Shown: positions 1,449 through 47,392 of the stretch, piece after piece
Layout: every line of letters begins with the position of its first letter
Numbering within the stretch: position 1 is the stretch's first letter
Translations under genes and position numbers: made by a program
The notes under the pieces: model-generated
What the model was told of the DNA's origin: nothing
The model's input: the letters and a program-made list of their open reading frames with translations, nothing else
Database searches by the model: none
Assembly: GCF_030063135.1 (NCBI RefSeq)
Contig: NZ_JASISO010000011.1
Coordinates: 1 to 64,000, forward strand
From: Streptomyces sp. G-G2
Lineage (GTDB): Bacteria; Actinomycetota; Actinomycetes; Streptomycetales; Streptomycetaceae
Length of the DNA stretch: 64,000 bases
Reading direction: 5' to 3'

Positions 1449-1463
1449 CTGACGTACCGTCAG
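1449..1463. promoter_or_regulatory. TetR-type operator, copy 1
   Basis: Perfect 15-bp dyad CTGACGTACCGTCAG, with 6-bp arms around a 3-bp centre. It lies 29 bp before the DoxX start codon and 163 bp before the divergent monooxygenase start. It is the first of nine copies of the same dyad in the window, all next to lipid/F420-type genes. Confidence 0.8.
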
Positions 1464-7429: not shown

Positions 7430-8662
7430 TCACCGCCCGAGGATCACCGTCCCCGAGGAGCAGAACCAGCCGCCCGTGCCCGAGGCGAGGGCGACCTCCG
7501 GGAGCCGTCCGCCCGCCTTGCGGACCTGGCCCTCTCCCGCCTCGCCGCGCAGCTGGCGGACGGCCTCGACGAGCAGGAACAGCCCCCGCATGCCGGGGTG
7601 GCAGGCCGAGAGGCCGCCGCCGTCGGTGTTGACCGGGAGTTCGCCGTCCCGCAGCAGGCGGCCCTTCTCCACGAACGCCCCGCCCTCTCCCTTCGCGCAG
7701 AAGCCGAGGTCCTCCAGGGTGACCAGGGTCATGTAGGTGAAGGCGTCGTACAGCTCGGCGACGTCCACGTCCCCGGGGGTCAACCCGGCCCGCTGGAAGG
7801 CCAGTCGGCCCGAGACGGCGGCGGGGGAGACGGTGAAGTCGTCCCACTCGGACATCGTGGTGTGCGAGACGGCCGTGCCGGTGCCCAGGACCCACACCGG
7901 CGCCTTCGCGGTGTCGGGTACGAGGTCCTCCGCCACCAGCAGTACCGCGCAGCCGCCGTCCGAGCGGATGCAGCAGTGCAGCTTGGTGAAGGGGTCCGCG
8001 ATCATGTCGCCGGACAGCACCTCGTCGACGGTGATCGGGTCGCGGAACATCGCGTCGGGGTTGGTCGCGGCGTTGGCGCGCGCCTGGACGGCCACCGAGG
8101 CCAGCTGCTCCAGGGTGGTCCCGTACTCGTGCATGTGGCGCCGGGCCGCCATCGCGTACTTGGCGACCAGCGTGTGCCCGTACGGCACCTCGAACTGGAG
8201 GGGTCCGCGGGCGCCGAAGGAGAGGTTCGAGGTGCGCCGCCGGGCCTTGATGTCGGCGCGGGCGGTCGATCCGTAGACGAGGAGCACGGCGTTCGCGTGG
8301 CCCGCGGCGATGGCGTCGGCCGCGTGGGCCGCCATCACCTCCCAGGTGGAGCCGCCGACCGAGGTGGAGTCCACCCAGGTGGGGCGCAGGCCCAGGTATT
8401 CGGCGACCTCGACCGGTGCCAGGGTGCCCAGCCCGGCCGAGGCGAAGCCGTCGATGACCGAGCGGTCGAGCCCGGAGTCGGCGAGGGCGCGGCGCGCGGC
8501 CTGGGCGTGCAGGGCGTAGGGGGTGGGGCCGTCGACCCGTCCGCAGTCCGAGAGGGCGACGCCGGCGACCGCGACCCGGCGGCGGGGAGCGGCCAGGGCA
8601 GCGGGGCCCCGTGCGGGTCCGGGCGTGGGGCGGGGCGTGGGACGGGGCGTGGGTCCAGGCAT
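7430..8662 (-). CDS. thiolase-fold lipid-transfer protein (SCP-X/Ltp type)
   Basis: About 410 aa, after a Pro/Thr/Arg-rich N-terminal tail. The thiolase fold is clear: RRRVAVAGVALSDCG start, MHEYGTT, ELYDAFTYM, KGEGGAFVEKG and the C-terminal NTDGGGLSACHPGMRG loop. The usual nucleophile position (VGGST, about 8345-8360) appears to hold Gly rather than Cys. That resembles Ltp2-type retro-aldolases rather than true thiolases, which in steroid degraders work with a DUF35 partner. Start codons at 8662 and 8677 are both possible; the operator at 8678-8692 abuts the latter, so the shorter form is chosen. Divergent from the acyl-CoA dehydrogenase gene, with an operator at each side of the promoter gap. 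Confidence 0.83.
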   Translation of the reverse strand: MPGPTPRPTPRPTPGPARGPAALAAPRRRVAVAGVALSDCGRVDGPTPYALHAQAARRALADSGLDRSVIDGFASAGLGTLAPVEVAEYLGLRPTWVDSTSVGGSTWEVMAAHAADAIAAGHANAVLLVYGSTARADIKARRRTSNLSFGARGPLQFEVPYGHTLVAKYAMAARRHMHEYGTTLEQLASVAVQARANAATNPDAMFRDPITVDEVLSGDMIADPFTKLHCCIRSDGGCAVLLVAEDLVPDTAKAPVWVLGTGTAVSHTTMSEWDDFTVSPAAVSGRLAFQRAGLTPGDVDVAELYDAFTYMTLVTLEDLGFCAKGEGGAFVEKGRLLRDGELPVNTDGGGLSACHPGMRGLFLLVEAVRQLRGEAGEGQVRKAGGRLPEVALASGTGGWFCSSGTVILGR

Positions 8663-8677
8663 GGAGCGACGGTACAT

Positions 8678-8692
8678 CTGACGGGACGTCAG
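8678..8692. promoter_or_regulatory. TetR-type operator, copy 2
   Basis: Perfect dyad CTGACGGGACGTCAG directly upstream of the minus-strand thiolase-fold gene. Its position at the start codon suggests a leaderless or very short-leader transcript. Confidence 0.8.
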
Positions 8693-8751
8693 TTTCTAGT
8701 GGGTGATGCGGTTGCCGCCCCTCTGTGCATCTGCCTCCCCCCGGCCTAATA

Positions 8752-8764
8752 TGACGGCCCGTCA
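8752..8764. promoter_or_regulatory. TetR-type operator, copy 3
   Basis: TGACGGCCCGTCA, a perfect 13-bp core, with the outermost pair (A8751/G8765) not matched. It lies 21 bp before the acyl-CoA dehydrogenase start and just upstream of its GGGAGGAG ribosome site. Confidence 0.78.
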
Positions 8765-8785
8765 GATCTGGGGAGGAGCCCGACG

Positions 8786-10000
8786 ATGGACGCCGCCTTC
8801 ACCGCGGAGCAGGAAGAGATACGCCGCACCCTGCGCGAAATCCTGGGCAAACGCTGCGGTCCGGACGAGGTCAAGGCCGCCGTACGGACCGACGCCGGAT
8901 ACGACCCGGAGCTGTGGCAGCAGCTCGCCCGGCAGCTCGGGCTGCCCGGACTCGCCGTCGCCGAGGAGTACGGGGGCGTCGGCTGCGTCCCCGCCGACCT
9001 GGCCCTCGCCTGCGAGGAGACCGGGCGGGCCCTGCTGCCCTCGCCCCTGCTGGCCACCGCCGTGCTCGCCGCGCCGTTGGTCACCGCCCTCGGCAGCCCG
9101 GCCCAGCGCTCCGCCCTGCTGCCCCCGCTCGCCGCGGGCACCCTCACCGCCGCCCTCGCCGTCCCGGGCGCCGCGCTGTCCACCGCCCTCGGGCTGACCG
9201 CCGACAACGTCGCGGGCGAGTGGGCGGGCGGCGGCCGGGCCGGGGGTGTGCAGGCCCGGCGCCCCGAGGGGGAGGAGGGCTGGCGGCTGTACGGGGAGGC
9301 CGCCCAGGTCCTCGACGGCCACAGCGCGGGCCTGCTGCTGGTCGCCGCCCACGCGGGGGGCTTCGCGCGCAGCCGCGCGCTGCTGTTCCTCGTGCGGGGG
9401 GACGCGCCCGGGCTCGTACGGTCGAGGCAGGCCGCCCTGGACGAGACCCGGCCGCAGGCCCGCGTCCAACTGCGCGACACCCCGGCTGAGTTGCTCGGGG
9501 GGCGGGAGGACGCCGACGTCGCCGGGGCGCTCGCCGCCACCGGGCGCGGCGCCGCCGCCGTACTGGCCGCCGAGGCGGTCGGCGCGGCCGAGCAGGCCCT
9601 CGTACGCACCGTGGACTACGTACGCCAGCGCGAGCAGTTCGGCCGCGCCATCGGGTCGTTCCAGGCGGTCAAGCACCGCCTGGCCGACCTGTACGTCCGG
9701 GTCCAGGCGGCCAGGTCGGCCGCCTACTACGCCGCCTGGGACCCGGAGCAGGGGGGCCTCGCGCTCGCCCAGGCCCTGGAGGCGCTGCGCGTGACCTCGG
9801 GTGAGGCGATCCAGTTGCACGGAGGGATCGGCTTCACCTGGGAACACGACGCACACCTGTACTTCAAGCGCGCCGCGGCCGACGAACTGCTCTTCGGGCC
9901 GGTCCACCGGCTGCGCGCGCACGCCGCCGACCGGGCCGGACTGTTCGCCGGGCCGGACCGGTCCCCCCGTGACGAGCGTGTGGAAAGGGTGGCCGTCTGA
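8786..10000 (+). CDS. acyl-CoA dehydrogenase family protein
   Basis: A 404-aa FAD enzyme expected to introduce an alpha,beta double bond into an acyl-CoA thioester. The N-terminal helical domain, mid beta domain and C-terminal helical domain are all present. The C-terminal marks are QREQFGRAIGSFQAVKHRLAD and the QLHGGIGFTWEHDAHLYFKR helix pair (about 341-361). It is encoded singly, whereas steroid-type ACADs are usually two-gene heterotetramers. ATG follows a strong GGGAGGAG site, and operator copy 3 lies upstream. The stop overlaps the start of the next gene (TGATG), so both are made together. Confidence 0.9.
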   Translation: MDAAFTAEQEEIRRTLREILGKRCGPDEVKAAVRTDAGYDPELWQQLARQLGLPGLAVAEEYGGVGCVPADLALACEETGRALLPSPLLATAVLAAPLVTALGSPAQRSALLPPLAAGTLTAALAVPGAALSTALGLTADNVAGEWAGGGRAGGVQARRPEGEEGWRLYGEAAQVLDGHSAGLLLVAAHAGGFARSRALLFLVRGDAPGLVRSRQAALDETRPQARVQLRDTPAELLGGREDADVAGALAATGRGAAAVLAAEAVGAAEQALVRTVDYVRQREQFGRAIGSFQAVKHRLADLYVRVQAARSAAYYAAWDPEQGGLALAQALEALRVTSGEAIQLHGGIGFTWEHDAHLYFKRAAADELLFGPVHRLRAHAADRAGLFAGPDRSPRDERVERVAV

Positions 10001-10573: not shown

Positions 10574-10599
10574 GCGGCGGACCCCTGGGGGTCCGCCGC
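10574..10599. terminator. bidirectional terminator between convergent genes
   Basis: Perfect 11-bp arms at 10574-10584 and 10589-10599 with a 4-nt loop. It lies between the F420 reductase gene and the convergent TetR gene and touches the TetR stop codon. Confidence 0.7.
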
Positions 10600-11246
10600 T
10601 ACTTGGTGGGCTTCTTGCCGGTGATGCCGAGGTGCACGAGCAGCGCCAGGTTCGGCTTCAGTTCGGCCTGCTTCACGCCCCAGGTCTGGAAGCCCTTCTG
10701 GTGCGAGGCCACCGCGGCGAGCATCGCGACCAGGGAACCGGCCATCGCGGCAGGGCTGACGTCCTTGTCGACCTTGCCCTTCGCCTGGAGCTCCTTCACC
10801 GATTCGGTGAGGGAGTTGGTGACCGAGTTGAGGATCTTCATGCGGATCTTGTAGAAGCGCTTGTCGCCCTCGGCCGCGCCGAGGTCGACGACCCGCAGGA
10901 TCGCGTCGTTGCGCCGCCAGAAGTCCAGGAAGCCCTCGACGAGTTCCTCGGCGGCGGCCCAGCCGGCTTTGCCGACCCAGGCCCGGCCCTCGACGAGCGC
11001 GGTCAACTGCGCGCCGTCATTGGCCATTTCCTCGGCGATCTCCAGGACGGCGCCTTCGACGTCCGGGAAGTACTGGTAGAAGGTCGCGGGGGAGGTGCCG
11101 GCCTTGCGGGCGACGTCGATCACCTTGACGTCGCGGTACGGCGAGGAGCTGAGCATCTCGCTGAGGCAGTCGAGCAGCTTCTGCCGCGTCGCCTGGCCGC
11201 GCCGACCGGCCACGCGGCCGTCGACGGTGCGTACTTGTCCTGTCAT
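10599..11246 (-). CDS. TetR family regulator, candidate controller of the CTGACG-N3-CGTCAG regulon
   Basis: A 215-aa TetR protein with the helix-turn-helix at about 40-60 (KVIDVARKAGTSPATFYQYF). The C-terminal domain contains WRRNDAILRVVDLGAAEGDKRFYKIRMKI-type helices, as seen in actinobacterial regulators of lipid metabolism. It ends in a basic KKPTK tail. It is convergent with the acyl-CoA dehydrogenase/F420 operon and divergent from the kbpA-like gene. No CTGACG dyad lies in its own promoter region, so it is not obviously autoregulated by that site. It is the only TetR gene in the window not explained by its own different operator, hence the assignment. That link is inference. Confidence 0.85.
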   Translation of the reverse strand: MTGQVRTVDGRVAGRRGQATRQKLLDCLSEMLSSSPYRDVKVIDVARKAGTSPATFYQYFPDVEGAVLEIAEEMANDGAQLTALVEGRAWVGKAGWAAAEELVEGFLDFWRRNDAILRVVDLGAAEGDKRFYKIRMKILNSVTNSLTESVKELQAKGKVDKDVSPAAMAGSLVAMLAAVASHQKGFQTWGVKQAELKPNLALLVHLGITGKKPTK

Positions 11247-11480
11247 GCCGTCAGCTTACCGAGGGGTGATCGGCGCGCGATTCGGCCGCCTGCAAATGGG
11301 GTTACGGGGTACCTGGCCTGCGGGTACGCCGCCCGGGGGGCGGAATCCGGCCGCACCCGCGCGCTGACGGGCCGCGAGGGGGCCGCGGGCGGGCCGGGGG
11401 CGGGCCGCGAGTCGGCCGCGGGCGGGCGGCGGGCGGGTCCAGTCGGCGCGGAGGGGTTGCGGCGTGTCCCCCGAATAGTC

Positions 11481-23789: not shown

Positions 23790-24941
23790 TCAGCTCCTCA
23801 GCAGGATCGCGGACGTCGGGACTCCCTCGCCCGCCGTCACCAGGCAGGTCGCGGCGTCGGGCACCTGGGCGGTGGAGATCCCGCGCAGTTGCTTGACGCC
23901 CTCGTTGATCAGGTTGAAGCCGTGGACGTAGGCCTCGCTCAGACCGCCGCCCCCGGTGTTGATGGGGAGGCGCCCGCCGATCTCCAGGGCCCCGCCCTCG
24001 GTGAAGGCTGCGCCCTCGCCGCGTCCGCAGAAGCCGTAGCCCTCCAGGGAGAGCGGGATGAGGGGGGTGAAGGCGTCGTAGATCTGGGCGACGTCCACGT
24101 CCTGCGGGCCGAAATCGGCCTGCTTCCACAGGTGTCGGGCGGCGGTCCAGGCGGGGCCGGTCAGCGGATCGTCGTTCCAGTAGTTGACCATGCCGTGGTG
24201 CTGGGCGGGCAGGCCCTGGGCCACGGAGTGGACGTAGACCGGCTTCTGTCTGCAGTCGCGGGCCCGTTCGGCGGAGACGATCACGCAGGCCAGCGCCCCG
24301 TCGGTCTCCAGGCAGTTGTCGAAGAGGCAGAGCGGCTCGCTGATCCACCGCGCGGTCATGTAGCTCTCGCGGGTCATCGGGCGCTCGTACATGATCGCGG
24401 CCGGGTTCTGGTTGGCGCGGTTGCGGCAGGCCAGGGCCACGTTGAAGAGGTGGTCGCGGGTGGCGCTGTACTCGTGCATGTAGCGGCGCGCCAGCATGCC
24501 GATCTCGTCGGCCGGGCGCAGCAGCCCGAAGGGCCGCGTCCACTGGCCGGGGGTGGGGAGCTGGACGGCCGTGTTCTTCCAGGGGCGCGGGCCGGAGCCG
24601 CGCTTGCGCGAGCGCCAGGCGACGCCGACGCTCGCCTGCCCGGTGGCGACGGCGGCGGCGAGGTGGCCGATGGTGGCGCAGGAACCGCCCCCGCCGTAGC
24701 CGACCTTGGAGAAGAAGGTGACGTCACCGGCGCCGATGGTCTTGGCGATCTCGACCTCGTCGGTCTCTTCCATCGTGTAGGACGCGAAGGCGTCGACCTC
24801 GGAGGGGGCTATCCCCGCGTCCGCCAGTGCGGCGAGAATGGCGCGGCAGGCCAATTCCTTCTCGGTCTGCGGCAGTTGTTTGGCGAAGGCCGTCTGGCCG
24901 ATGCCGACAATCGCCGTAGCGTCCTTGAGTGTTGCCGCCAT
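23790..24941 (-). CDS. second thiolase-fold lipid-transfer protein (Ltp type)
   Basis: A 383-aa thiolase-fold protein with ATAIVGIGQTAFAKQLP at the start, RRYMHEYSATRDHL in the middle, AQIYDAFTPLIPLSLEGYGFCGRGEG and the NTGGGGLSEAYVHGFN loop at the end. As in the first copy, the nucleophile region (VGYGGGG) carries Gly where true thiolases have Cys, so an aldolase-like or acyl-transfer role is likelier than thiolysis. The ATG at 24941 has a GGAGG site; a GTG at 24947 is also in frame. First gene of the operon with DUF35 and enoyl-CoA hydratase, and divergent from the acyl-CoA ligase across operator copy 4. Confidence 0.85.
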   Translation of the reverse strand: MAATLKDATAIVGIGQTAFAKQLPQTEKELACRAILAALADAGIAPSEVDAFASYTMEETDEVEIAKTIGAGDVTFFSKVGYGGGGSCATIGHLAAAVATGQASVGVAWRSRKRGSGPRPWKNTAVQLPTPGQWTRPFGLLRPADEIGMLARRYMHEYSATRDHLFNVALACRNRANQNPAAIMYERPMTRESYMTARWISEPLCLFDNCLETDGALACVIVSAERARDCRQKPVYVHSVAQGLPAQHHGMVNYWNDDPLTGPAWTAARHLWKQADFGPQDVDVAQIYDAFTPLIPLSLEGYGFCGRGEGAAFTEGGALEIGGRLPINTGGGGLSEAYVHGFNLINEGVKQLRGISTAQVPDAATCLVTAGEGVPTSAILLRS

Positions 24942-24994
24942 CGCCACCTCCGGGGGGTGCGCCAGTACTGACAGCCGCGAAGGCTACAGCTAAT

Positions 24995-25009
24995 CTGACG
25001 AACAGTCAG
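24995..25009. promoter_or_regulatory. TetR-type operator, copy 4
   Basis: CTGACGAACAGTCAG, the common dyad with one mismatch in the right arm, in the 95-bp gap between two divergent operons: thiolase-fold/DUF35/hydratase and acyl-CoA ligase. One site could control both. Confidence 0.75.
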
Positions 25010-25036
25010 CTATTGGTTCGCGGTGAGGGGCGTGCG

Positions 25037-26812
25037 ATGGACGAGGAAGCGGAAGAGCACGTGCGCGAGGGCGGGGCCGGACCCGGGCATCCGTCCGCCG
25101 ACGGACCCGAGGACCGGGCCGCAGAACGACCCGAGGACCGGGCCGCCGACGGACGCGAGGACCCGGCCGCAGACGGAGCCGAGGACGCGGCCGCAGACGG
25201 ACCCGAGGACGCGCGCGGCGATCTGCGCTGGGGCAGCATCGGCGGCCTGGTCCGCGACGCCGCCTCCCGGTTCGCCGCGCACGAGGCCGTCGTCGACGGC
25301 CGGGTCCGGATCAGCTACGCGCAGCTCGGCGAACGGGTCGAACGCGCCGCGGCCGCCTGCATGGCCGCCGGGCTGGAACCGGGAGACCGGGTCGCCGTCT
25401 GGGCGCCCAACACCCTGGAGTGGATCGTCTCCGCCCTCGGCGCGGTCTCGGCGGGCGCGGTCCTCGTGCCGCTCAACACCCGTTTCAAGGGCGCCGAAGC
25501 GGCGTACGTCCTTGAGCGCAGCCGCGCGCGGATGCTCTTCGTCACCGGCACCTTCCTCGGCACCTCCTACGTCGCCTCCCTGCGCCGGGCCGCCGCCGAG
25601 GGCCCGGGCCACGGCCCGCTGCCCGGGCTGCCGCACCTGGAGCAGGTCGTCGTACTCGCCGAGGACGCCCCCGAGTCCTTCCGTACCTGGAAGGACTTCC
25701 TGGCGGGCGGCGACACGGTCCCCGCCTCCGCGGTGCGCGAGCGCGCCGACTCCGTACGACCGGACACGCCCTCCGACATCATCTTCACCTCCGGCACCAC
25801 CGGCAGCCCCAAGGGCGCGGTGATCACGCACGCCCAGACCCTGCGGTGCTACCAGGTGTGGAGCGAGCTGGCCGGGCTCCGCGAGGGCGACCGCTACCTG
25901 ATCGTGAACCCGTTCTTCCACACCTTCGGCTACAAGGCGGGCATCATCGCGTGCCTGATGCGCGGCGCGACGATGGTCCCGCAGCCCGTCTTCAACATCG
26001 ACACCGTCCTCGCCAATGTCGCCGCCGAGCGGATCTCCGTACTCCCCGGGCCGCCCACCCTGCACCAGTCGCTCCTCGACCACCCGGCGCGCGACCACCA
26101 CGACCTCTCCGCCCTGCGCCTCGTCGTCACCGGGGCGGCGGTGGTCCCGCTGCGGCTGGTGGAACGGCTGCGCGGCGAGCTGCGGATCGGGGTCGTCCTC
26201 ACGGCGTACGGGCTCTCCGAGGCCAGCGGCATCGTCACCATGTGCCGCCGCGGCGACCCGGCGGAGACCATCGCGGCCACCTCCGGGCGGGCCATCCCCG
26301 GCACCGAGGTGATGATCGCGGACCCGGAGGGCGCGCCGCAGCCGACGGGGGAGGCGGGCGAGGTGTGGGTCCGCGGGCACCACGTCATGCGCGGGTACTT
26401 CGAGGACCCGGAGGAGACCGCCCGCGCCATCACCCCCGAGGGCTGGCTGCGCACCGGTGACGTCGGGGTGACGGACGCGGACGGCAACCTGCGGATCACC
26501 GACCGGATCAAGGACATGTTCATCGTCGGCGGTTTCAACGCCTACCCCGCCGAGATAGAGCAGCTCCTCGGGCTGCACCCGGACATCGCGGACGTGGCGG
26601 TGGTCGGGGTACCGGACCCGCGGCTCGGCGAGGTCGGGCGGGCGTACGCGGTGCGCCGCCGCGGCTCGACCCTGACCGCCGACGACCTGATCGCCTGGTC
26701 GCGCCGGGAGATGGCGAACTACAAGGTGCCGCGGTCGGTGGAGTTCGTGGCCGACCTGCCGCGCAACGCGAGCGGCAAGGTGCTCAAGCGGGAGCTGCGC
26801 GCGCGGTCCTGA
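25037..26812 (+). CDS. acyl-CoA ligase (FadD/AMP-binding family)
   Basis: A 591-aa adenylate-forming enzyme that activates a carboxylic acid to its CoA thioester. Seen are the phosphate loop TSGTTGSPKG (about 251-260), GLSEASG in the A5 region, GWLRTGDVG and the C-terminal hinge ITDRIKDMFIVGGFNAYP. The catalytic Lys lies in NASGKVLKREL. The organisation is like FadD3 and related ligases of steroid or terpenoid catabolism, but substrate cannot be read. An unusual N-terminal extension of about 50 residues repeats PEDRAA/GREDPAA-like acidic octads. The ATG at 25037 follows GAGGGG. It is divergent from the thiolase-fold operon across an operator and is probably the entry step of the pathway. Confidence 0.9.
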   Translation: MDEEAEEHVREGGAGPGHPSADGPEDRAAERPEDRAADGREDPAADGAEDAAADGPEDARGDLRWGSIGGLVRDAASRFAAHEAVVDGRVRISYAQLGERVERAAAACMAAGLEPGDRVAVWAPNTLEWIVSALGAVSAGAVLVPLNTRFKGAEAAYVLERSRARMLFVTGTFLGTSYVASLRRAAAEGPGHGPLPGLPHLEQVVVLAEDAPESFRTWKDFLAGGDTVPASAVRERADSVRPDTPSDIIFTSGTTGSPKGAVITHAQTLRCYQVWSELAGLREGDRYLIVNPFFHTFGYKAGIIACLMRGATMVPQPVFNIDTVLANVAAERISVLPGPPTLHQSLLDHPARDHHDLSALRLVVTGAAVVPLRLVERLRGELRIGVVLTAYGLSEASGIVTMCRRGDPAETIAATSGRAIPGTEVMIADPEGAPQPTGEAGEVWVRGHHVMRGYFEDPEETARAITPEGWLRTGDVGVTDADGNLRITDRIKDMFIVGGFNAYPAEIEQLLGLHPDIADVAVVGVPDPRLGEVGRAYAVRRRGSTLTADDLIAWSRREMANYKVPRSVEFVADLPRNASGKVLKRELRARS

Positions 26813-28419: not shown

Positions 28420-31400
28420 TCAGGCCGCGATCGCCGACGCCAGCAACGCCCGTACTTCCGTCAGTTCCGGCGACCCCAGCTGCTCGAAGACGGCCTCCGC
28501 GTCCCGCCAGCACACCCGCGCCCGGTCGGTCTGCCCCAGGCTCCTCAGCGCCTTGCCCAGGACGGTCAGGACGGTCGCCCGCCGCCACTCCCCGCCGATC
28601 CCGCGCAGCGCGATCGCCTGCTCGGCGTGCGAGGCCGCGAGGGTGGGGCGGCGGGCGGCCAGGTGCGCCTCGGCGAGCCGGAAGTGCGTGACGCCCTCCC
28701 ACAGCGGCTGGCGGTTGTCGTGGAAGAGGGACAGCGCCTCGGTGAGCTGTGCCTGGGCCTCCTGGAGGCGGTTCGCCTGGGTGAGCGCGATGCCCAGCGC
28801 GTAGCGGCCGTTGGCCAGGCGCAGGCTCAGGCCCATCCGGTCGTAGATGGCGATGCCCTGCTGCGCCAGCTCGATGGCGCTGGGCAGCCGCCCGAGTTCC
28901 ACGTGGATGCGGGAGAGGTTGCACAGGGCGCTGGCCTCGCCGACGTGGTTGTCGTCGGCCCGGAAGTTCTCGATGGCCTCCAGCAGGAAGCGCTCGCCGT
29001 CGGCGTAACGGCCCTGGTGGAGGGCGATGATCCCCCGGTCGTTGGGCGCCCAGCAGCTGGGCAGCGGGTCTCCGGCGGCCTTGGCCAGGGCGGTCGCCTG
29101 GCGGGCCTCGTCGTCGGCGGCGGTGAAGCGGCCCGCGATCAGGTGGACGGTGGTGAGCGTGGTGCGGGCCCGGCCCTCGGCGCGCGGGTCGCGGGCGGCC
29201 TGCGCCGCGTCGCGCACGGCGCCCGCCGTGGACTCGTACTGCTTGGAGTTGGCCCCGGACTCGGCGAGGTCCTTGGCCGCCCACAGCAGGTCCACGGCCC
29301 GGCGCAGTACGTCGTGCACGGCGCCGCCCGCGGCGGCTCCCGTGGTCCGGGCCGCGGCCTGGCGCACGCAGGCGAGGACGGTGTCGGCCTCGGCGTACAG
29401 CCAGTCCAGGGCGGCGTGACCGTCGGCGAAGTCCCGGCCCGGGTAGCGGGTCGGTGACAGGTGGGCGACGAGCCGGTCGCCGGGGCGCTCCAGCGCGTAC
29501 ACGCGGGAGGCGGTGGCGAGGTAGAAGTCGAGGAGCCGGTCCAGGGCGGCGGCCCGTTCGCTCGCGGGGTGCTCGTCGCGTTCCGCGCAGGCACGCGCGT
29601 AGAGCCGTACGAGGTCGTGGAAGCGGTAGCGGCCGGGCGCGGCGGATTCGAGCAGGGAGCAGTCGACTAAAGCTTCGAGGAGGTCCTCGGTGTCGTGGGC
29701 GGGCCGGTCGATGACGGCGGCCGCGGCGCACAGCGAGATGTCGGGGCCGTCGGCGAGCCCGAGCAGCCGGAAGGCGCGCTGCTGGGCGGGCTCCAGCTGG
29801 CCGTAGCCCAGCTCGAAGGTGGCCTTGACCGCGAGGTCCCCGGCCTGGAGCTCGTCCAGGCGGCGGCGCTCGTCGGCGAGTTTGGCGGCGAGGACGGAGA
29901 CGGTCCAGGTGCGGCGGGCGGCGAGCCGGGAGGCGGCGATCCGGATGGCGAGCGGCAGGAACCCGCAGGCGCCGACGACGTCGAGGGCGGCCTGGCGCTC
30001 GGCGCCGACCCGCTCGGCGCCGACGATCCGGGTGAACAGGAGCAGGGCCTCGTCGGGGCTCATCACGTCGAGGTCGACGAGGTGGGCCCCGGCCAGCCCG
30101 GCCATCCGGACCCGGCTGGTGACCAGGGCGGCGCAGCCCGCGGTGCCGGGGAGCAGGGGGCGTACCTGGGCGGCGTCGCGCGCGTTGTCGAGGAGCACCA
30201 GGACGCGGCGGCCGTCGAGGGTGGAGCGGTAGAGCGCGGCCCGTTCGGCGGGGGAGTCGGGGATCTGGGTGTCGGGGGTGCCGAGCGCCCGCAGGAAGGA
30301 GCCGAGGACGGCCTCGGGTTCGACGGGGCGCGCCTCGGTGCCCTGGAGGTCGACGTAGAGCTGCCCGTCGGCGAAGTGCGGGCGGGCGGCGTGCGCGACG
30401 TGCACGGCGAGGGTGGTCTTGCCGACGCCGCCTATGCCCGCGAGGGCGGAGACGGCCATGATCTGGCCGTCGGCCCCGGCGAGGATCCGGCCGAGTTCGG
30501 TGACGAAGGTGGCGCGTCCGGTGAAGTCGGGCACCGTGGCCGGGAGTTGCGCCGGGCGGACCTGGGCGGGGGTGGCGGCGGGGGCCGGGTCGGCGGCGCG
30601 GGCGAGTTCGGCGTCGGCGCGCAGGATCCGCTGCTGGAGCGCGGCGAGTTCGGGGCGCGGGTCGACCCCGAGTTCGTCGGCGAGGAGGCGGCGGGTGTCG
30701 GCGTACACGGCGAGCGCCTCGGCCTGCCTGCCGCTGCGGTAGAGGGCGAGCATGAGCAGCTCGCGCAGGCGCTCGCGCAGCGGGTGGGCGGCGGTGAGGG
30801 CGGTGAGTTCGGAGACGGCCTCGGCGTGGCTGCCGACTTCGAGGTCGAGGTCGAGGCGGGTCTCCAGGAGCTGGAGGCGCCATTCGCCGAGCCGGACGCG
30901 TTCGGTCTCGGCGTAGGGGCCGGGGACTCCGGCGAGGGGTTCGCCGTCCCACAGGTCCAGCGCGCGGGCCAGCAGGGTCCGGGCGAGGGAGCGGTCCCCG
31001 GCGGCACGGGCCTTGTCGGCGTCGGTGGTCAGGCTGCGGGCGACGCCGAGGTCGAGGGCGGCGGCGGAGCCGAGCCGGATGGCGTACCCGCCGGATTCGC
31101 TGACGAGCAGCCCGGCGTCGAGGACCTTGCGCAGCCGGGAGGCGTACGTGCGGATGGCGGCCAGGGCCTGCGGGGGCGGGTCCTCTCCCCAGATCGCGTC
31201 GATCAGCTCGGGGGCGGTGGCGGTGCGGCCGTCGCGCAGCAACAGGGCCGCGAGCAGCGCGCGTTGCTGCGGGCTGCCGGAGTGGAGGGCCTCGCTGCCG
31301 CGCCAGGCGCGGATGGGGCCGAGGACGGCGAAGCGGGTGCCGCCCGCGGGAGCGGGGGCCGGGTCCCGCTCCCGCGGTGTGCCGGGCGCGGGCGCGGCGA

Positions 31401-31686
31401 GGCGGGCTGCGGGCACGGGTGCGGCGGCCGCGGGCGGCACGGGTGCGGCGGCCGCGGTGGGCGGAGGCGTGGGCGGCGCGGCGGGTGACGTGGCCCGGGG
31501 CACGGGGGGCTTGGCGGCGCGCGGGGCGGCGTGAGGCGCCGCGGGCGGGGTCGCGGGCCTGGTGGCGGGCGGTGCGGCGGGCCGGGGCGCCGCTTCGGGC
31601 GGGTGGGAGGATCGGGACGCCGCGGCGCCGGGCCGGGTTGCCTCGGGGTGGTTCCGCTGGTGCGGGATGGCCGGTATGCCGTCCAT
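28420..31686 (-). CDS. afsR: AfsR, global SARP-family transcriptional activator
   Basis: A 1,088-aa multidomain regulator. A Pro/Ala-rich N-terminal extension (1-115) is followed by an OmpR-like winged helix (about 118-215; FAVLGPIRAW, then SPQQRALLAALLL) and a BTAD (about 215-365). The NB-ARC ATPase follows, with P-loop GIGGVGKTTL near 417-426 and the VLVLLDNARD kinase-2 motif. The C-terminal third is TPR repeats. AfsR is phosphorylated by AfsK and related kinases and activates afsS. Codon 673 is TTA (29668-29670), suggesting bldA dependence of this global regulator. ATG follows GGGGGGA. The promoter gap is shared with a divergent amidohydrolase gene and contains operator copy 5. The length exceeds the roughly 990 aa of S. 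coelicolor AfsR because of the N-terminal tail. Confidence 0.87.
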   Translation of the reverse strand: MDGIPAIPHQRNHPEATRPGAAASRSSHPPEAAPRPAAPPATRPATPPAAPHAAPRAAKPPVPRATSPAAPPTPPPTAAAAPVPPAAAAPVPAARLAAPAPGTPRERDPAPAPAGGTRFAVLGPIRAWRGSEALHSGSPQQRALLAALLLRDGRTATAPELIDAIWGEDPPPQALAAIRTYASRLRKVLDAGLLVSESGGYAIRLGSAAALDLGVARSLTTDADKARAAGDRSLARTLLARALDLWDGEPLAGVPGPYAETERVRLGEWRLQLLETRLDLDLEVGSHAEAVSELTALTAAHPLRERLRELLMLALYRSGRQAEALAVYADTRRLLADELGVDPRPELAALQQRILRADAELARAADPAPAATPAQVRPAQLPATVPDFTGRATFVTELGRILAGADGQIMAVSALAGIGGVGKTTLAVHVAHAARPHFADGQLYVDLQGTEARPVEPEAVLGSFLRALGTPDTQIPDSPAERAALYRSTLDGRRVLVLLDNARDAAQVRPLLPGTAGCAALVTSRVRMAGLAGAHLVDLDVMSPDEALLLFTRIVGAERVGAERQAALDVVGACGFLPLAIRIAASRLAARRTWTVSVLAAKLADERRRLDELQAGDLAVKATFELGYGQLEPAQQRAFRLLGLADGPDISLCAAAAVIDRPAHDTEDLLEALVDCSLLESAAPGRYRFHDLVRLYARACAERDEHPASERAAALDRLLDFYLATASRVYALERPGDRLVAHLSPTRYPGRDFADGHAALDWLYAEADTVLACVRQAAARTTGAAAGGAVHDVLRRAVDLLWAAKDLAESGANSKQYESTAGAVRDAAQAARDPRAEGRARTTLTTVHLIAGRFTAADDEARQATALAKAAGDPLPSCWAPNDRGIIALHQGRYADGERFLLEAIENFRADDNHVGEASALCNLSRIHVELGRLPSAIELAQQGIAIYDRMGLSLRLANGRYALGIALTQANRLQEAQAQLTEALSLFHDNRQPLWEGVTHFRLAEAHLAARRPTLAASHAEQAIALRGIGGEWRRATVLTVLGKALRSLGQTDRARVCWRDAEAVFEQLGSPELTEVRALLASAIAA

Positions 31687-31782
31687 CTGTCGTCCCCCCT
31701 GCCTTCCGTCGGTGTGGTGGCCAGTCTGCCCTGTCTTGCGGTGAGACGTCAGCCCGCAGTGGACGGATCGCCGTCCAACTAG

Positions 31783-31797
31783 CTGACGCATCGTCAG
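31783..31797. promoter_or_regulatory. TetR-type operator, copy 5, in the afsR/amidohydrolase divergent gap
   Basis: Perfect dyad CTGACGCATCGTCAG, 21 bp before the amidohydrolase start and 97 bp before the divergent afsR start. A further half-site, GACGTCAG, lies at 31745-31752 towards afsR. Confidence 0.8.
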
Positions 31798-31818
31798 ATC
31801 AACGCTACCGTGAGGGTC

Positions 31819-33045
31819 ATGGAGACCTTCCCGAAGATCATCTCGGTGGACGACCACACGGTTGAGCCCCCCCACGTCTGGCGGGACCGGCTCCCGTCCA
31901 AGTACCACGACATCGCCCCGCGCGTGGTCCGTGCCCCCCTGAAGGAAATGACCTTCCTGGGCGGCAAGTTCGCGCCGGTCATGGGTGCCAAGGGCGACGA
32001 CGGGCCGATCGGCGACTGGTGGGTCTACGAGGACCTGCACCGGCCGCTGACCCGACTGGACACGGCGGTCGGATACGACCGCGACGAGATCAAGCTGGAA
32101 GTCATCACCTACGAGCAGATGCGCCCGGGGTCCTTTTCGGTTCCCGAGCGCCTCGCCGACATGGACGTCAACCACGTCCAGTCCGCCCTCTGCTTCCCGA
32201 CGTTCCCCCGCTTTTGCGGACAGACCTTCACCGAGGCCAAGGACCGCGAACTCGGTCTCCTCGGCGTACGGGCGTACAACGACTGGATGGTGGAGGAGTG
32301 GTGCGGGCCGCTTGCCCAGGGCCGGCTGATCCCGCTCACCCTCATCCCGCTGTGGGACCCGCGGCTCGCCGCCGCCGAGGTCCGGCGCAACGCGGCACGC
32401 GGCGTGCGGGCGGTCGCCTTCTCCGAGATACCGCCGCACCTCGGGCTGCCGTCCATCCACACGGACGAGTGGGACCCCTTCCTCCAGGCCTGCGACGAGA
32501 CCGGCACGGTCATCGCCATGCACATCGGCTCCTCGTCGCGCATGCCGTCGACCTCGGCGGACGCCCCGCCCGCCGTCGGCTCCACCATCACCTTCGCCAA
32601 CTGCTGCTTCTCGATGGTCGACTGGCTGATGAGCGGCAAGTTCGAGCGCTTCCCCAACCTGAAGATCATGTACGCCGAGGGCCAGATCGGCTGGATCCCC
32701 TACATCCTGGAGCGCGCCAACGTGGTCTGGGAGGAGAACCGCGGCTGGGGCGGCGTCGCCGACAAGGTGCTGCGCCCGCCGTCGGAACTCTTCGCCGAGC
32801 ACGTCTTCGGCTGCTTCTTCGACGACGCCTTCGGGCTGAAGAACCTGGACTCGATCGGGGTGGCGAACGTCCTGTACGAGACGGACTACCCCCACTCGGA
32901 CTCGACCTGGCCGAAGTCCCGCGAGGTCGGCGAGGCCCAGATGGGCCACCTCGCCCCGGACGTGGTGGACCGCATCGTCCGCGGCAACGCGATCGGCCTG
33001 CTGGGCCTGACCCCGGACGGCCTCTGGGCGGGGCCGGGGGCGTAG
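31819..33045 (+). CDS. amidohydrolase 2 family protein
   Basis: A 408-aa TIM-barrel hydrolase or decarboxylase of the amidohydrolase-related family. The usual N-terminal HxH is seen as VDDHTVEPPHVW (about 10-21). A mid His lies in AMHIGSSSRMP, and the catalytic Asp in YETDYPHSDSTWP (about 355). Homologues of this type occur in actinobacterial steroid and aromatic gene sets, where they are usually uncharacterised. The first His of HxH is an Asp-His arrangement, so metal use may differ. The ATG at 31819 follows GAGGG; a GTG at 31810 is possible. Controlled by operator copy 5, divergent from afsR. Confidence 0.83.
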   Translation: METFPKIISVDDHTVEPPHVWRDRLPSKYHDIAPRVVRAPLKEMTFLGGKFAPVMGAKGDDGPIGDWWVYEDLHRPLTRLDTAVGYDRDEIKLEVITYEQMRPGSFSVPERLADMDVNHVQSALCFPTFPRFCGQTFTEAKDRELGLLGVRAYNDWMVEEWCGPLAQGRLIPLTLIPLWDPRLAAAEVRRNAARGVRAVAFSEIPPHLGLPSIHTDEWDPFLQACDETGTVIAMHIGSSSRMPSTSADAPPAVGSTITFANCCFSMVDWLMSGKFERFPNLKIMYAEGQIGWIPYILERANVVWEENRGWGGVADKVLRPPSELFAEHVFGCFFDDAFGLKNLDSIGVANVLYETDYPHSDSTWPKSREVGEAQMGHLAPDVVDRIVRGNAIGLLGLTPDGLWAGPGA

Positions 33046-43139: not shown

Positions 43140-43394
43140 ATGAGTGCGGAGATCACCGTCTACTGGCGGCCCGGGTGTGTGTACTGCATGAAGCTGTGGG
43201 TCAAGCTCCGTCTGACCGGCACCCGTTACCGCCCGGTCAACATCTGGCGCGACCCCGGCGCGGCCGCCTACGTCCGCGGTGTCGCGCAGGGCAACGAGAC
43301 CGTCCCCACGGTCCGCGTCCGCCGCGCCGACGGCGCCGAGCACGCCCTGGTGAACCCGACCCTGGCCGAGGTGCGCCGGGCGGTCAGCGGGTGA
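43140..43394 (+). CDS. glutaredoxin-like (mycoredoxin-type) protein
   Basis: An 84-aa thioredoxin-fold protein with a CVYC active site (Cys13-Cys16), the TVPTVRV cis-Pro segment (about 55-61), and a short C-terminal helix. In actinobacteria this class uses mycothiol rather than glutathione to reduce mixed disulphides. Its end overlaps the end of the convergent membrane-protein gene by 11 bp. No ribosome site is obvious; translation may be leaderless. Confidence 0.85.
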   Translation: MSAEITVYWRPGCVYCMKLWVKLRLTGTRYRPVNIWRDPGAAAYVRGVAQGNETVPTVRVRRADGAEHALVNPTLAEVRRAVSG

Positions 43395-44031
43395 GGCCCG
43401 GGGCCCCTGGCGGGGCGGTCCGCGTCCGCGTCCGGTGGTGGAGCAGCAGGGCGATGTAGGCGAGGTCGAAGACCCCGCACAGGATGCCCAGGCCCAGAAT
43501 GAACGGGGCGTCCTCGATCACCCCGAACAGGACGGTCGGGGCCAGGGTGCCGAGCCATTTCGCGACGGCGATGACCAGGCTCTGGCCGCGCGTCCCCGCC
43601 CGGTCCGCGAACAGGGCGATGAACAGCCCGGACATCAGCAGGTTCTGCAGGAACGCCGAGTAGCGGCTCGCGTCGTGCGCCCCGAAGTGCGCGAGGAAGA
43701 GCCACTGCACGGCGAAGGCGCCGCCGAAGACCAGTACCCCCCAGACGGCGAACAGCGGCCGGGTGACGAACTCCGGCAGCTCGGCGCGCCCGAAGCGGAA
43801 GAACGTGGAGACGATCACCAGGTCGGCCAGGGCCCACACGATGTTGACGACGCCCTGCGCGGACACCCCGCCGAGGACGTCGTTCACGGCGTACGTCGAC
43901 TCCCACGCGAAGTTCAGCGCGAGCGCGGCCACCGGCATCGCGTACGTCCGCTGCCGCAGCCCGAGCCGGATGGCCTCGGCGTAGACGAGGGTCCAGGCGA
44001 TCCCGCTGACCAGGGTCAGGAACAGCTCCAC
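43384..44031 (-). CDS. seven-helix membrane protein resembling Pyr4-type terpene cyclases
   Basis: A 215-aa protein with about seven hydrophobic helices. Two acidic motifs recall Pyr4-family membrane terpene cyclases: LALNFAWESTYAVND (Glu near 44) and ILCGVFDLAYIALL near the C-terminus (Asp near 190). Size also matches (Pyr4-like proteins are around 200-240 aa). If right, it would protonate and cyclise a prenyl substrate in the membrane. No prenyltransferase or epoxidase is adjacent, so the assignment rests on motifs alone. It could otherwise be an unrelated seven-helix protein. Confidence 0.55.
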   Translation of the reverse strand: MELFLTLVSGIAWTLVYAEAIRLGLRQRTYAMPVAALALNFAWESTYAVNDVLGGVSAQGVVNIVWALADLVIVSTFFRFGRAELPEFVTRPLFAVWGVLVFGGAFAVQWLFLAHFGAHDASRYSAFLQNLLMSGLFIALFADRAGTRGQSLVIAVAKWLGTLAPTVLFGVIEDAPFILGLGILCGVFDLAYIALLLHHRTRTRTAPPGAPGLTR

Positions 44032-44298: not shown

Positions 44299-44313
44299 CT
44301 GACGATGCGTCAG
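44299..44313. promoter_or_regulatory. TetR-type operator, copy 6
   Basis: Perfect dyad CTGACGATGCGTCAG, 93 bp before the first LLM oxidoreductase gene. Confidence 0.8.
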
Positions 44314-44340
44314 CTACCACCATGGGCCCTGGTCGTCATG

Positions 44341-44353
44341 TGACGGGACGTCA
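44341..44353. promoter_or_regulatory. TetR-type operator, copy 7
   Basis: TGACGGGACGTCA, a perfect 13-bp core whose outermost pair is not matched. It is 53 bp before the LLM gene start, and its centre is 41 bp from that of copy 6, so two dimers could bind side by side. Confidence 0.77.
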
Positions 44354-44406
44354 GCCCGTGGCGATGGTGATGGCGACGGCCACGACGAAGGCGAGGCGGG
44401 CACGGC

Positions 44407-45354
44407 ATGGCGCGTGTGTTTCCGGAAGGTCGGCTGGTCTACGGGATGCAGCTCCCGGTCCAGTCGCAGAGCACCATCTACGCCGAGCCCTGGGAGGCGT
44501 CGGCGGGCGCGGCCGATCTCGCCGAGGTCGCCCGCGCCGCCGACCGGGCGGGCTTCGGATACCTGGCCTCGTGCGACCACGTGGCCATCCCGCGCAGGCT
44601 CGCCGGGCCGATGAGCACCGTCTGGTACGACCCGGTCGCCACCCTGTCCTTCCTGGCCGCGATCACCGAGCGCGTCCGGCTGCTCAGCCATGTCGCGGTC
44701 GTCGGCCTGCGCCACCCGCTGATCAGCGCCAAGCAGTACGCGACCCTCGACCACCTCTCCGGCGGGCGGCTGATCCTCGGCGTGGGGGCGGGGCACGTGC
44801 AGGAGGAGTTCGAGGTCCTCGGCGTCGACTTCGCCCGGCGCGGCCCGCTGCTCGACGAGACCATCGACGCGCTGCGCGCGGCCCTCGGGCCCGAGGAGTA
44901 CCCGGAGTTCGAGGGGGAGACCTTCGCGTTCAAGGACCTCGGGCAGCTGCCGCGCCCGGCCCAGGAGCGGATCCCGGTGTGGGTCGGCGGCTCCTCGCCC
45001 GCCGCCGTGCGCAGGGCGGCCGTACGCGGCGACGGCTGGCTCCCGCAGGGCGACCCGCGCGACAGGCTCCCGGCCCAGGTGGCCCGTATCCGGGAACTGC
45101 GCGCCGCCGCCGGGGTGGGCGCCCCCATCGAGATGGGCGCGATCACGGAGGCGCTGTACATCGGCGAGCCCGGCTGGGACACCGGGCGGCGCACGCTCAC
45201 GGGCAAGGCGGAGGTCCTCGCCGAGTCCCTGCGGGAGTACAAGGCGCTCGGCATGGACCAGATCCAGGTGCGCTTCCGCAGTCGCGACCGGGCCGAACTC
45301 GTGGACCAGATCAGCGCGTTCGGGGCCGAGGTGGCCCCGCTCCTCAACGACTGA
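44407..45354 (+). CDS. LLM-class F420-dependent oxidoreductase
   Basis: A 315-aa luciferase-like TIM barrel. Typical marks are the N-terminal VYGMQLPVQS, ADRAGFGYLASCDHVAIPRR, TERVRLLSHVAVVGLRHPLISAKQYATLDHLSGGRLILGVGAGH and IPVWVGGSSPAAVRRAAVRGDGWLP. The family uses F420 or FMN; neighbouring DDN-like and LLM genes suggest F420. The first gene after operators 6 and 7, it is followed 25 bp later by the SDR gene, so the two probably form an operon. Confidence 0.87.
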   Translation: MARVFPEGRLVYGMQLPVQSQSTIYAEPWEASAGAADLAEVARAADRAGFGYLASCDHVAIPRRLAGPMSTVWYDPVATLSFLAAITERVRLLSHVAVVGLRHPLISAKQYATLDHLSGGRLILGVGAGHVQEEFEVLGVDFARRGPLLDETIDALRAALGPEEYPEFEGETFAFKDLGQLPRPAQERIPVWVGGSSPAAVRRAAVRGDGWLPQGDPRDRLPAQVARIRELRAAAGVGAPIEMGAITEALYIGEPGWDTGRRTLTGKAEVLAESLREYKALGMDQIQVRFRSRDRAELVDQISAFGAEVAPLLND

Positions 45355-46172: not shown

Positions 46173-46187
46173 TCTGATGGAGCGTCA
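46173..46187. promoter_or_regulatory. TetR-type operator, copy 8
   Basis: CTGATGGAGCGTCAG, one mismatch in the left arm. It follows the SDR stop by 8 bp, upstream of the second LLM gene. Confidence 0.68.
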
Positions 46188-46232
46188 GGTATTGACGCGT
46201 CCGGCGCGCGATGGAACAGTCAACCCATCAAA

Positions 46233-46247
46233 TCTGACGCAACGTCA
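46233..46247. promoter_or_regulatory. TetR-type operator, copy 9
   Basis: Perfect dyad CTGACGCAACGTCAG, 14 bp before the second LLM gene start and 60 bp from copy 8. TGACGCGTCA at 46162-46171 and a half-site at 46192 lie nearby. Confidence 0.8.
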
Positions 46248-46261
46248 GAAACTTAAGGACG

Positions 46262-47392
46262 GTGAACCCCTTGGAATTCGGGCTCTTTGTGCAGGGATAC
46301 GTGCCTGAGGCGCGCTCCAAGGTCGACCCCGAGGCGGAGCACAAGGCGCTGATCGAGGAAACCGAGTACGTCATCCAGGCGGACAAGTCCGGCTTCAAGT
46401 ACGCCTGGGCCTCCGAGCACCACTTCCTGGAGGAGTACTCGCACCTCTCGGCGAACGAGGTCTTCCTCGGGTACCTCGCCCACGCCACCGAACGCATCCA
46501 CCTCGGCTCCGGCATCTTCAACCCGCTCGCCCCGGTCAACCACCCGGTCAAGGTGGCCGAGAAGGTCGCCATGCTCGACCACCTGTCCAAGGGCCGCTTC
46601 GAGTTCGGCACCGGCCGCGGCGCGGGCAGCCACGAGATCCTCGGCTTCCTCCCCGGCATCGAGGACATGAACGGCACGAAGGAGATCTGGGAGGAGACCA
46701 TCGCGGAATTCCCCAAGATGTTCCTCCAGGAGGAGTACGAGGGGTTCCAGGGCAAGCACTGGTCGCTGCCGCCGCGGAAGATCTTCCCCAAGCCGTACGG
46801 GAAGGCCCACCCGGCCATGTGGTACGCGGCGGGCTCGCCCTCCTCGTACGCGATGGCCGCGAAGAAGGGGCTCGGGGTCCTGGGCTTCAGCGTCCAGAAG
46901 GTCTCGGACATGCAGTGGGTCCTGGACCAGTACAAGACGGCCATCCAGGAGGCGAAGGCGATCGGCGCGTTCGTCAACGACAACGTCATGGTGACCTCGA
47001 CCGCGATCTGCGCCGAGACCCACGACAAGGCCGTGGAGATCGCGGTCAACGCCAACATGAACCGCTTCCAGTCGCTGGTCTTCCGCTACCACGACACCTT
47101 CCCGCGGCCCGAGGCGATCCCGGAGTGGCCGGAGATCCTCCCCGAGTACAACGCGGAGATCATCGAGCTGCTGATCGCCGAGGAGCTGCTGATCTGCGGG
47201 GACCCGACGGAGGTCCTCCAGCAGTGCAAGCGGTGGGAGTCGGCGGGGGCGGACCAGCTGTCCTTCGGTCTGCCGACGGGGGTGTCGTACGAGGACACGA
47301 TGAACACGGTGAAGCTGATCGGGGAGCACGTGATCCCGAAGATCGACACCGACCCCATCCACCGCACCACCCGCTTCCGCGAATCCGCCTGA
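46262..47392 (+). CDS. LLM-class F420/flavin-dependent oxidoreductase
   Basis: A 376-aa luciferase-like monooxygenase-family protein, longer than the first LLM copy. Seen are EFGLFVQGYVPEARS at the start, YAWASEHHFLEEYSHLSANEVFLGYLA, THRIHLGSGIFN-like and LDHLSKGRFEFGTGRGAGSHE. The end region (LLIAEELLICGDPTEVLQQCKRWE, then ADQLSFGLPTG) is typical of actinobacterial members in steroid-type gene clusters. GTG 46262 is used; a TTG at 46271 would give the family-typical MEFGLF start. Under operators 8 and 9. Reaction unknown; hydride transfer or oxygenation are both possible. Confidence 0.87.
   Translation: MNPLEFGLFVQGYVPEARSKVDPEAEHKALIEETEYVIQADKSGFKYAWASEHHFLEEYSHLSANEVFLGYLAHATERIHLGSGIFNPLAPVNHPVKVAEKVAMLDHLSKGRFEFGTGRGAGSHEILGFLPGIEDMNGTKEIWEETIAEFPKMFLQEEYEGFQGKHWSLPPRKIFPKPYGKAHPAMWYAAGSPSSYAMAAKKGLGVLGFSVQKVSDMQWVLDQYKTAIQEAKAIGAFVNDNVMVTSTAICAETHDKAVEIAVNANMNRFQSLVFRYHDTFPRPEAIPEWPEILPEYNAEIIELLIAEELLICGDPTEVLQQCKRWESAGADQLSFGLPTGVSYEDTMNTVKLIGEHVIPKIDTDPIHRTTRFRESA

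Follow-up and report, generated by a model that had tools for sequence, protein, structure and literature searches.

A perfect palindrome lies in the 132-bp gap between two divergent genes of this Streptomyces genome, afsR and an amidohydrolase gene (afsR start codon at 31686-31684, hydrolase ATG at 31819), and the locus raises the question of which gene it serves. afsR is a long-studied global antibiotic regulator, and little was found in the literature searched on the control of its own transcription. A sequence-only reading of the window (the whole stretch analysed, 64 kb) proposed that the palindrome is a catabolic operator bound by a TetR-family repressor, that an extra half-site lies towards afsR, and that a bound repressor could act on afsR as well as on the hydrolase gene, so that pathway metabolites might change antibiotic regulation.

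The site at 31783-31797, CTGACGCATCGTCAG, is a perfect CTGACGN3CGTCAG palindrome. The genome (139 contigs, 8.19 Mb) has 13 perfect copies and none of the reversed control pattern, and five of the 13 are in the window (starting at 1449, 8678, 31783, 44299 and 46234; Table 1). The presence of the operator in the gap is thus confirmed, as is the length of the gap from the two start codons. Allowing up to one mismatch brings the genome total to 99 places, against 22 for the reversed control, and the one-mismatch places are therefore a mixture. With up to three mismatches the motif has no excess in the window (51 observed, 68 expected), so weak copies were disregarded and only perfect or near-perfect ones are treated as meaningful.

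Table 1. Coordinates of the operator copies, promoter elements and principal genes in the window.
Feature	Coordinates	Strand	Remarks
Operator copy	1449..1463	.	before flavin monooxygenase-type gene (53-1384, minus)
Operator copy	8678..8692	.	between thiolase-like (7430-8677, minus) and acyl-CoA dehydrogenase (8786-10000, plus) genes
One-mismatch operator copy	8751-8765	.	same thiolase-like/acyl-CoA dehydrogenase gap
TetR-family regulator (TetR_C_38)	10599..11246	-	candidate operator reader; Pfam
One-mismatch operator copy	24995..25009	.	near starts of thiolase-like gene (23790-24947, minus) and AMP-ligase ORF (24929-26812, plus)
afsR (SARP: Trans_reg_C, BTAD, NB-ARC, TPR)	28420..31686	-	Pfam
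Predicted afsR -10 CAGACT	31723..31728	-	AGTYTG-N18-CGTCAG block
Predicted afsR -35 CTGACG	31747..31752	-	conserved AGTYTG-N18-CGTCAG block; formerly read as 'extra half-site'
Operator CTGACGcatCGTCAG	31783..31797	.	left arm CTGACG (31783-31788) is also the predicted hydrolase -35
Predicted hydrolase -10 TACCGT	31806..31811	+	17 bp from -35, 8 bp past operator
Amidohydrolase (Amidohydro_2) gene	31819..33045	+	Pfam PF04909, E 1.4e-39
Operator copy	44299..44313	.	before F420-type luciferase-like oxidoreductase (44407-45354)
One-mismatch operator copy	44340-44354	.	ahead of the same oxidoreductase
One-mismatch operator copy	46174-46188	.	ahead of second luciferase-like oxidoreductase
Operator copy	46234..46248	.	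before second luciferase-like oxidoreductase (46262-47392)

The palindrome is repeated above chance ahead of functionally related genes, the neighbours including thiolase-like, acyl-CoA dehydrogenase, F420-type luciferase-like, SDR, AMP-ligase, enoyl-CoA hydratase and amidohydrolase genes, and the proposal of a genuine operator of catabolic-type genes holds on this evidence. Distal operators in three loci (L047, L048 and L051) have no obvious catabolic-type neighbour. Upstream of the operator that precedes the second luciferase-like gene (46174-46248 in the window), most of 38 orthologous loci have a further operator-like site with at most two mismatches, 45-78 bp away and most often at 60-63 bp. 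Beside the luciferase-like genes, positions 43384-44031 encode a small protein matching Pyr4-type transmembrane terpene cyclases (PF25129). Elsewhere in the genome (G000 contig C96, L055:3542-11585) there is a paralogous Amidohydro_2 gene, 57% identical, which adjoins AMP-ligase, cyclase-family and SDR genes with one-mismatch operators. In the literature searched no paper on a CTGACGN3CGTCAG regulon was found, and the listed papers that matched the operator half-sites together with TetR and Streptomyces were irrelevant by title.

The operator overlaps the core promoter of the hydrolase gene, its left arm coinciding with the predicted -35. The hydrolase mRNA is probably leaderless because the ATG is only 7 nt downstream of the predicted -10. 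An orthologue of the hydrolase is present in 43 of 61 genomes of the genus, and three sets of orthologous loci, which may contain one species repeatedly, were compared: the best 30 of the 43 orthologue-bearing genomes (L014-L043), 80 named loci that are the best 80 of at least 592 confirmed relatives, and 119 of 222 loci from those listed (L136-L254), among which distant orthologues are under-represented. A perfect operator with a variable 3-nt centre occurs in 30/30, 79/80 and 118/119 of these, and its left arm is altered in L130 and L200. The orthologue consensus is CTGACG-NNN-CGTCAG-N8-TACCGT-N5-8-ATGG, with the hydrolase ATG falling where transcription should start, a start expected at 31818-31819 of the plus strand in the window. 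A strict scan for this geometry across the 229 loci matched 30/30, 79/80 and 115/119, and in the 224 matches the gap between operator and -10 is 8 bp in all except one, where it is 7 bp; two loci have a deviating start context (L146 and L236) and one a deviating -10 (L212). The operator is also retained in eight loci with different DNA directly upstream of the hydrolase gene (L064, L109, L021, L033, L038, L129, L175 and L199). From its placement, the site at 31783-31797 is primarily the hydrolase operator, built into a predicted leaderless core promoter.

A separate promoter is predicted for afsR. An AGTYTG-N18-CGTCAG block (CTGACG-N18-CARACT on the afsR strand) is present in 71 of the 77 named loci with an afsR hit, including L103, first matched with a spacer of 14 and re-read as 18; in the window its reverse complement is CTGACG-N18-CAGACT, and in 120 of 164 loci the block lies 32-48 nt from the pattern-found afsR start. 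This bears on the half-site of the sequence-only reading: GACGTCAG does occur at 31745-31752, but the CGTCAG within it (31747-31752) is best read as the afsR -35, since the fixed-spacing block is kept both with and without the operator. The hexamer was rejected as a TetR site, belonging to a block that is also kept in operator-less genomes. The operator is outside the afsR core promoter, at least 30 bp and up to 288 bp upstream of the afsR -35, and its centre is ~74 bp upstream of the afsR start predicted near 31716 on the minus strand of the window, and up to ~330 bp upstream in relatives.

Genomes that lack the hydrolase separate the two genes. Twenty were compared, being those listed of 93 without a match, and some are incomplete (G001 79%, G050 82%). 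afsR is kept in all 20, and the afsR block is found in 14 by the strict pattern and in 17 with AGTCAG allowed. Among the 17 readable afsR promoters only two have a perfect operator (L270 and L271, at 129 bp from the afsR -35) and one has a one-mismatch site (L257, at 61 bp); weaker remnants are present in L256 (59 bp), L260 (63 bp), L262 and L266 (both 87 bp), and the others have nothing convincing as an operator. The operator is thus mostly not retained upstream of afsR independently of the hydrolase. In L271 the perfect operator is still beside a decayed hydrolase start, a regulon loss under way. As the operator is mostly lost with the hydrolase while the afsR promoter stays, we conclude that it is kept for the hydrolase gene and not for afsR. 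A role at afsR is not supported for a site whose position in the hydrolase promoter is rigid, which persists beside the hydrolase gene even where the upstream DNA differs, which has mostly decayed in hydrolase-lacking genomes, and which is ~74 bp upstream of the predicted afsR start.

The distance between the afsR -35 and the operator, which is 30 bp in the window and ranges from 30 to 288 bp, is quantised, with steps at 30, 41, 52, 63, 75, 87, 99, 110, 121 and onward. The 208 readable intervals, for which the match closest to the operator was used, reduce to 188 unique ones. The first set comprised 107 loci, 98 of them with a readable afsR block; L064, L086, L109, L116, L117, L129, L021, L033 and L038 were dropped, and the set does not include three named loci in which afsR gave no hit. 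These 98 intervals (57 sequence clusters) gave a best period of 11.55-11.65 bp, and in 5000 jittered sets the fit of the clusters was never equalled. From the 119 new loci the first strict pattern selected 97, of which 93 had the block, with 79 intervals unseen; a relaxed pattern later gave 110. With the period fixed beforehand at 11.55 bp these 79, whose loci may include near relatives of earlier ones, gave R=0.58 and a phase of 6.30 against 6.27 in the first set. This is the one test with pre-set period and phase; the period of 11.3 bp and the anchor of 30 used below were taken from the data. For 167 unique intervals under 150 bp R is 0.655 at 11.3 bp, and 121 of them lie within 1.5 bp of 30+11.3k (chance ~27%). 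R is 0.69 below 70 bp and 0.72 at 70-115 bp, and the phasing fades past ~115 bp (0.34 at 115-160 bp, n=27); intervals over 150 bp have R 0.32 with another phase, not significant (n=21), as expected if contact fails with length. Relaxed DNA has 10.5 bp per turn, so the observed period is longer, and DNA looping inside cells gives periods near 11 bp. Nothing relevant to phasing and afsR was found among the literature matches listed.

The same steps separate close relatives. In a tree built from the afsR coding part of 181 loci, 57 sister pairs could be read and 28 differ by at least 5 bp; 19 of these differences fall no more than 1.5 bp from a multiple of 11.3 bp (binomial 8e-6), and none is of 5-9 or 12-19 bp. 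As a control, the spacer from the SDR stop to the operator ahead of the second luciferase-like gene was read in 38 named loci. Its R is 0.24 at 11.3 bp and peaks, for periods between 9 and 13 bp, at 0.38 at 10.4 bp, weak rather than flat. The afsR leader length was unusable as a period control, being nearly fixed in most loci. The position of the operator relative to the afsR promoter is thus constrained by a helical phase lock, and the two promoters are likely to be physically coupled. The pattern hints that proteins on the two promoters touch each other, and which partners touch cannot be told from the data because the operator and the hydrolase -10 are rigidly joined. Contact would most likely serve the hydrolase gene, because the operator is mostly lost with that gene while the afsR promoter stays.

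An activator site is a candidate for one end of such a contact. In class I CRP promoters the activator works solely from one helix face, a rule that would explain the ~11-bp steps, and the steps of a CRP-like site relative to the predicted hydrolase start resemble class I one-face positions. Of the 160 intervals of 45 bp or longer, 86 contain a CRP-like palindrome scoring 8 of 10, a score that none of 160 shuffled ones reaches, and in 90 of the 160 the best match has a single, fixed offset relative to the afsR -35. The Streptomyces Crp consensus, given as GTG(N)6GNCAC (PMC10033298), scores a mean of 5.18 in the same intervals against 4.30 in shuffled ones. Similar sequence upstream of the afsR promoter block is also seen in hydrolase-lacking genomes. 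In the 28 short intervals of the window's own group the Streptomyces consensus does no better than in shuffled sequence (4.39 against 4.43) and the E. coli CRP palindrome has a slight excess (5.75 against 4.86), and these intervals keep the helical phase despite the absent or weak site. The lack of a clear CRP-like site in the window's group (d=30) is the main weakness of an activator-based reading and sets the locus apart from class I CRP promoters, the afsR/hydrolase activator being only proposed. CACA-type elements repeating at ~11 bp are seen upstream of afsR in many relatives (e.g. L078, L093 and L249); neither these nor the CRP-like palindrome are clear in the window.

The reading that we prefer joins these elements. 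A TetR dimer at the operator, one of a dispersed regulon of catabolic-type genes, would cover the hydrolase -35 and spacer and block RNA polymerase. afsR has its own predicted promoter, with its -35 30 bp from the operator, and changes of spacing by whole turns keep both promoters on one helix face, a phasing that may reflect selection for protein contact between the two sides. An activator bound upstream of afsR, at the CRP-like palindrome in many relatives, would probably also drive the hydrolase promoter, and TetR would gate this activator-driven promoter; any influence of TetR on afsR would be secondary. An afsR-owned activator recruited by the hydrolase gene is preferred because the afsR block outlives the hydrolase and has similar upstream sequence there. 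Taken whole, with its hydrolase operator, TetR gating, phase-coupled promoters and afsR-side activator, we regard this reading as on balance probable.

The strongest competitor is the one first proposed, in which TetR at 31783-31797 directly controls afsR and catabolic metabolites change AfsR signalling. The divergent shared gap, the helical phase lock and the likely pairing of TetR with the operators all speak for it. It has to accommodate an operator far upstream of the predicted afsR start, the loss or decay of most operators with the hydrolase though afsR stays, a supposed half-site that is the afsR -35, and the deletion in S. coelicolor of SCO4421, the counterpart of this TetR gene, for which PMC3878966 reports no detected phenotype. 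We consider direct control unlikely: phasing suggests a coupling through which a bound repressor might act on afsR, but the operator is placed for the hydrolase gene, and TetR control of afsR is not established. The literature searched yielded nothing that treats the afsR promoter together with TetR. The interpretation in the sequence-only reading is, as a whole, partly supported.

The 11-bp steps might instead be mutational, tandem duplications of about one turn being gained and lost neutrally. Of 15 aligned sister pairs, 6 have an adjacent 10-12-nt repeat of at least 80% identity in the longer of the two intervals, most clearly in L019 and L254, and none was found in the other pairs; the intervals have weak self-similarity at a lag of 11-12, with lags of 10-12 slightly raised, and the control spacer is not wholly flat. 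Yet intervals without an adjacent 10-12-nt repeat of at least 60% identity keep R=0.77 (n=31) and those below 75% keep R=0.67 (n=130), the control spacer of the same loci shows little at 11.3 bp, and neutral 1-bp indels would be expected to blur the phase across the genus. A mutational origin of the steps is accordingly rated improbable by us, and we conclude that selection on phase would explain the steps better than mutation, with duplication as a possible raw material.

That the genes are simple divergent neighbours, with a hydrolase-only operator, no coupling to afsR and phasing left by shared ancestry, agrees with all the evidence on operator placement and with the many short intervals common to close relatives, but is decidedly improbable, as the phase survives collapse to 92 sequence clusters (R=0.57 for the 73 under 150 bp; 0 of 4000 jittered sets as high) and is also seen in the sister-pair differences. 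Clustering at 65% identity was dropped, as it chained nearly all loci (13 clusters, 3 under 150 bp, no signal).

The regulator that reads the operators is probably the TetR-family protein of 10599-11246. As the sequence-only reading had it, its gene adjoins a glyoxalase-like gene, which we take to be kbpA, and an afsK-type kinase gene, and by its place near afsK it is the SCO4421 orthologue. Across the order, 118 of 119 genomes carry an orthologue of the TetR gene. Genus g3 belongs to another family, and in each of its nine listed genomes (G316, G317, G319, G320, G321, G325, G328, G329 and G330) a perfect operator lies at a distance of 1.7-5.0 kb from the TetR orthologue; the operators within ~25 kb of TetR number 6/9, 2/7, 6/16, 4/9, 6/10, 6/10, 4/12, 2/7 and 1/7 respectively, and several of these assemblies are fragmented. 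G316, a single contig, has its 6 of 9 operators within 22 kb of TetR, among AMP-ligase, SDR and luciferase-like genes (by comparison with the window proteins) and hydratase-like genes (by eye). afsR was not recognised within the 52 kb read around TetR in G316, and the regulon therefore also occurs where afsR is not a neighbour. In G315 both TetR and operator are missing.

Another regulator could read the operators instead. TetR and operators do not strictly co-occur, since TetR is kept where they are nearly gone, in genomes with 0-3 operators (G010, G027, G043, G050, G202, G333, G338 and G392). The four listed genomes of genera g4 and g5 have no operator close to TetR: the nearest of 20 in G323 is 40 kb away, and in the fragmented G318, G322 and G326 none of 8, 10 and 17 operators is on the TetR contig. 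Against this stand the close linkage in all nine listed g3 genomes and the failure of the window's other TetR-like gene, at 4631-5221, rejected for its wrong distribution (no more than 14 of 40 genomes have it, 10 of the 20 that carry the hydrolase and 4 of the 20 that lack it). We think a different reader quite unlikely. Beside the operators in the 80 named loci (adjacent clusters, inspected by eye) no regulator other than afsR was recognised. In low-operator genomes the site is within a predicted gene in 6 of 16 loci (from 33 sites), and the 16 loci have no common gene set. No operator lies within 1.5 kb of TetR in 30 Streptomyces TetR loci, even with one mismatch. CTGACGGCATGACAG, two mismatches from the motif, overlaps the ATG of the TetR gene (11240-11254) and is conserved in 30/30 loci apart from one centre base; weak autoregulation through it is possible, and coding constraint may account for half of the site.

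TetR-family repressors of CoA-dependent catabolism are known in the KstR and FadR types. The present system shares with these a TetR gene inside a cluster and the placing of palindromic operators within the core promoters of thiolase, acyl-CoA dehydrogenase, ligase and hydratase genes that are dispersed, and differs in its CTGACGN3CGTCAG operator and TetR_C_38 domain. Among solved structures, phmmer finds only distant relatives of the window TetR, the best being EthR (E 1.5e-6, residues 15-87). SCO4421 is likewise close to afsK, and its promoter fusion is active in spores and not in vegetative hyphae, a developmentally regulated pattern (PMC3878966); the available text of that paper contains no operator, target or afsR link for SCO4421 and no measurement of afsR transcription in the deletion. 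The AfsR circuit is controlled through the PhoP/AfsR boxes at afsS, which consist of 11-nt direct repeat units (PMC6988585), a period close to the 11.3-bp steps described here. The afsS boxes, as described there, are sequence repeats, whereas in the present case it is the spacing of two promoters that is quantised, and the spacer largely has no obvious repeat.

The position of the operator is ordinary and the spacing pattern is unusual. The comparative record yields a precise predicted promoter for afsR and gives the operator a likely regulator and set of genes. It also amounts to a natural spacing experiment, in which whole-turn changes are common and half-turn changes rare, and the shared gap becomes testable. 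A tentative and rather unlikely extension is that the gap is one phased unit across much of Streptomyces, in which TetR and the afsR-side activator or polymerase are in contact and tune each other; if so, a catabolic ligand would tune afsR, and an afsR-side signal would tune a catabolic gene.
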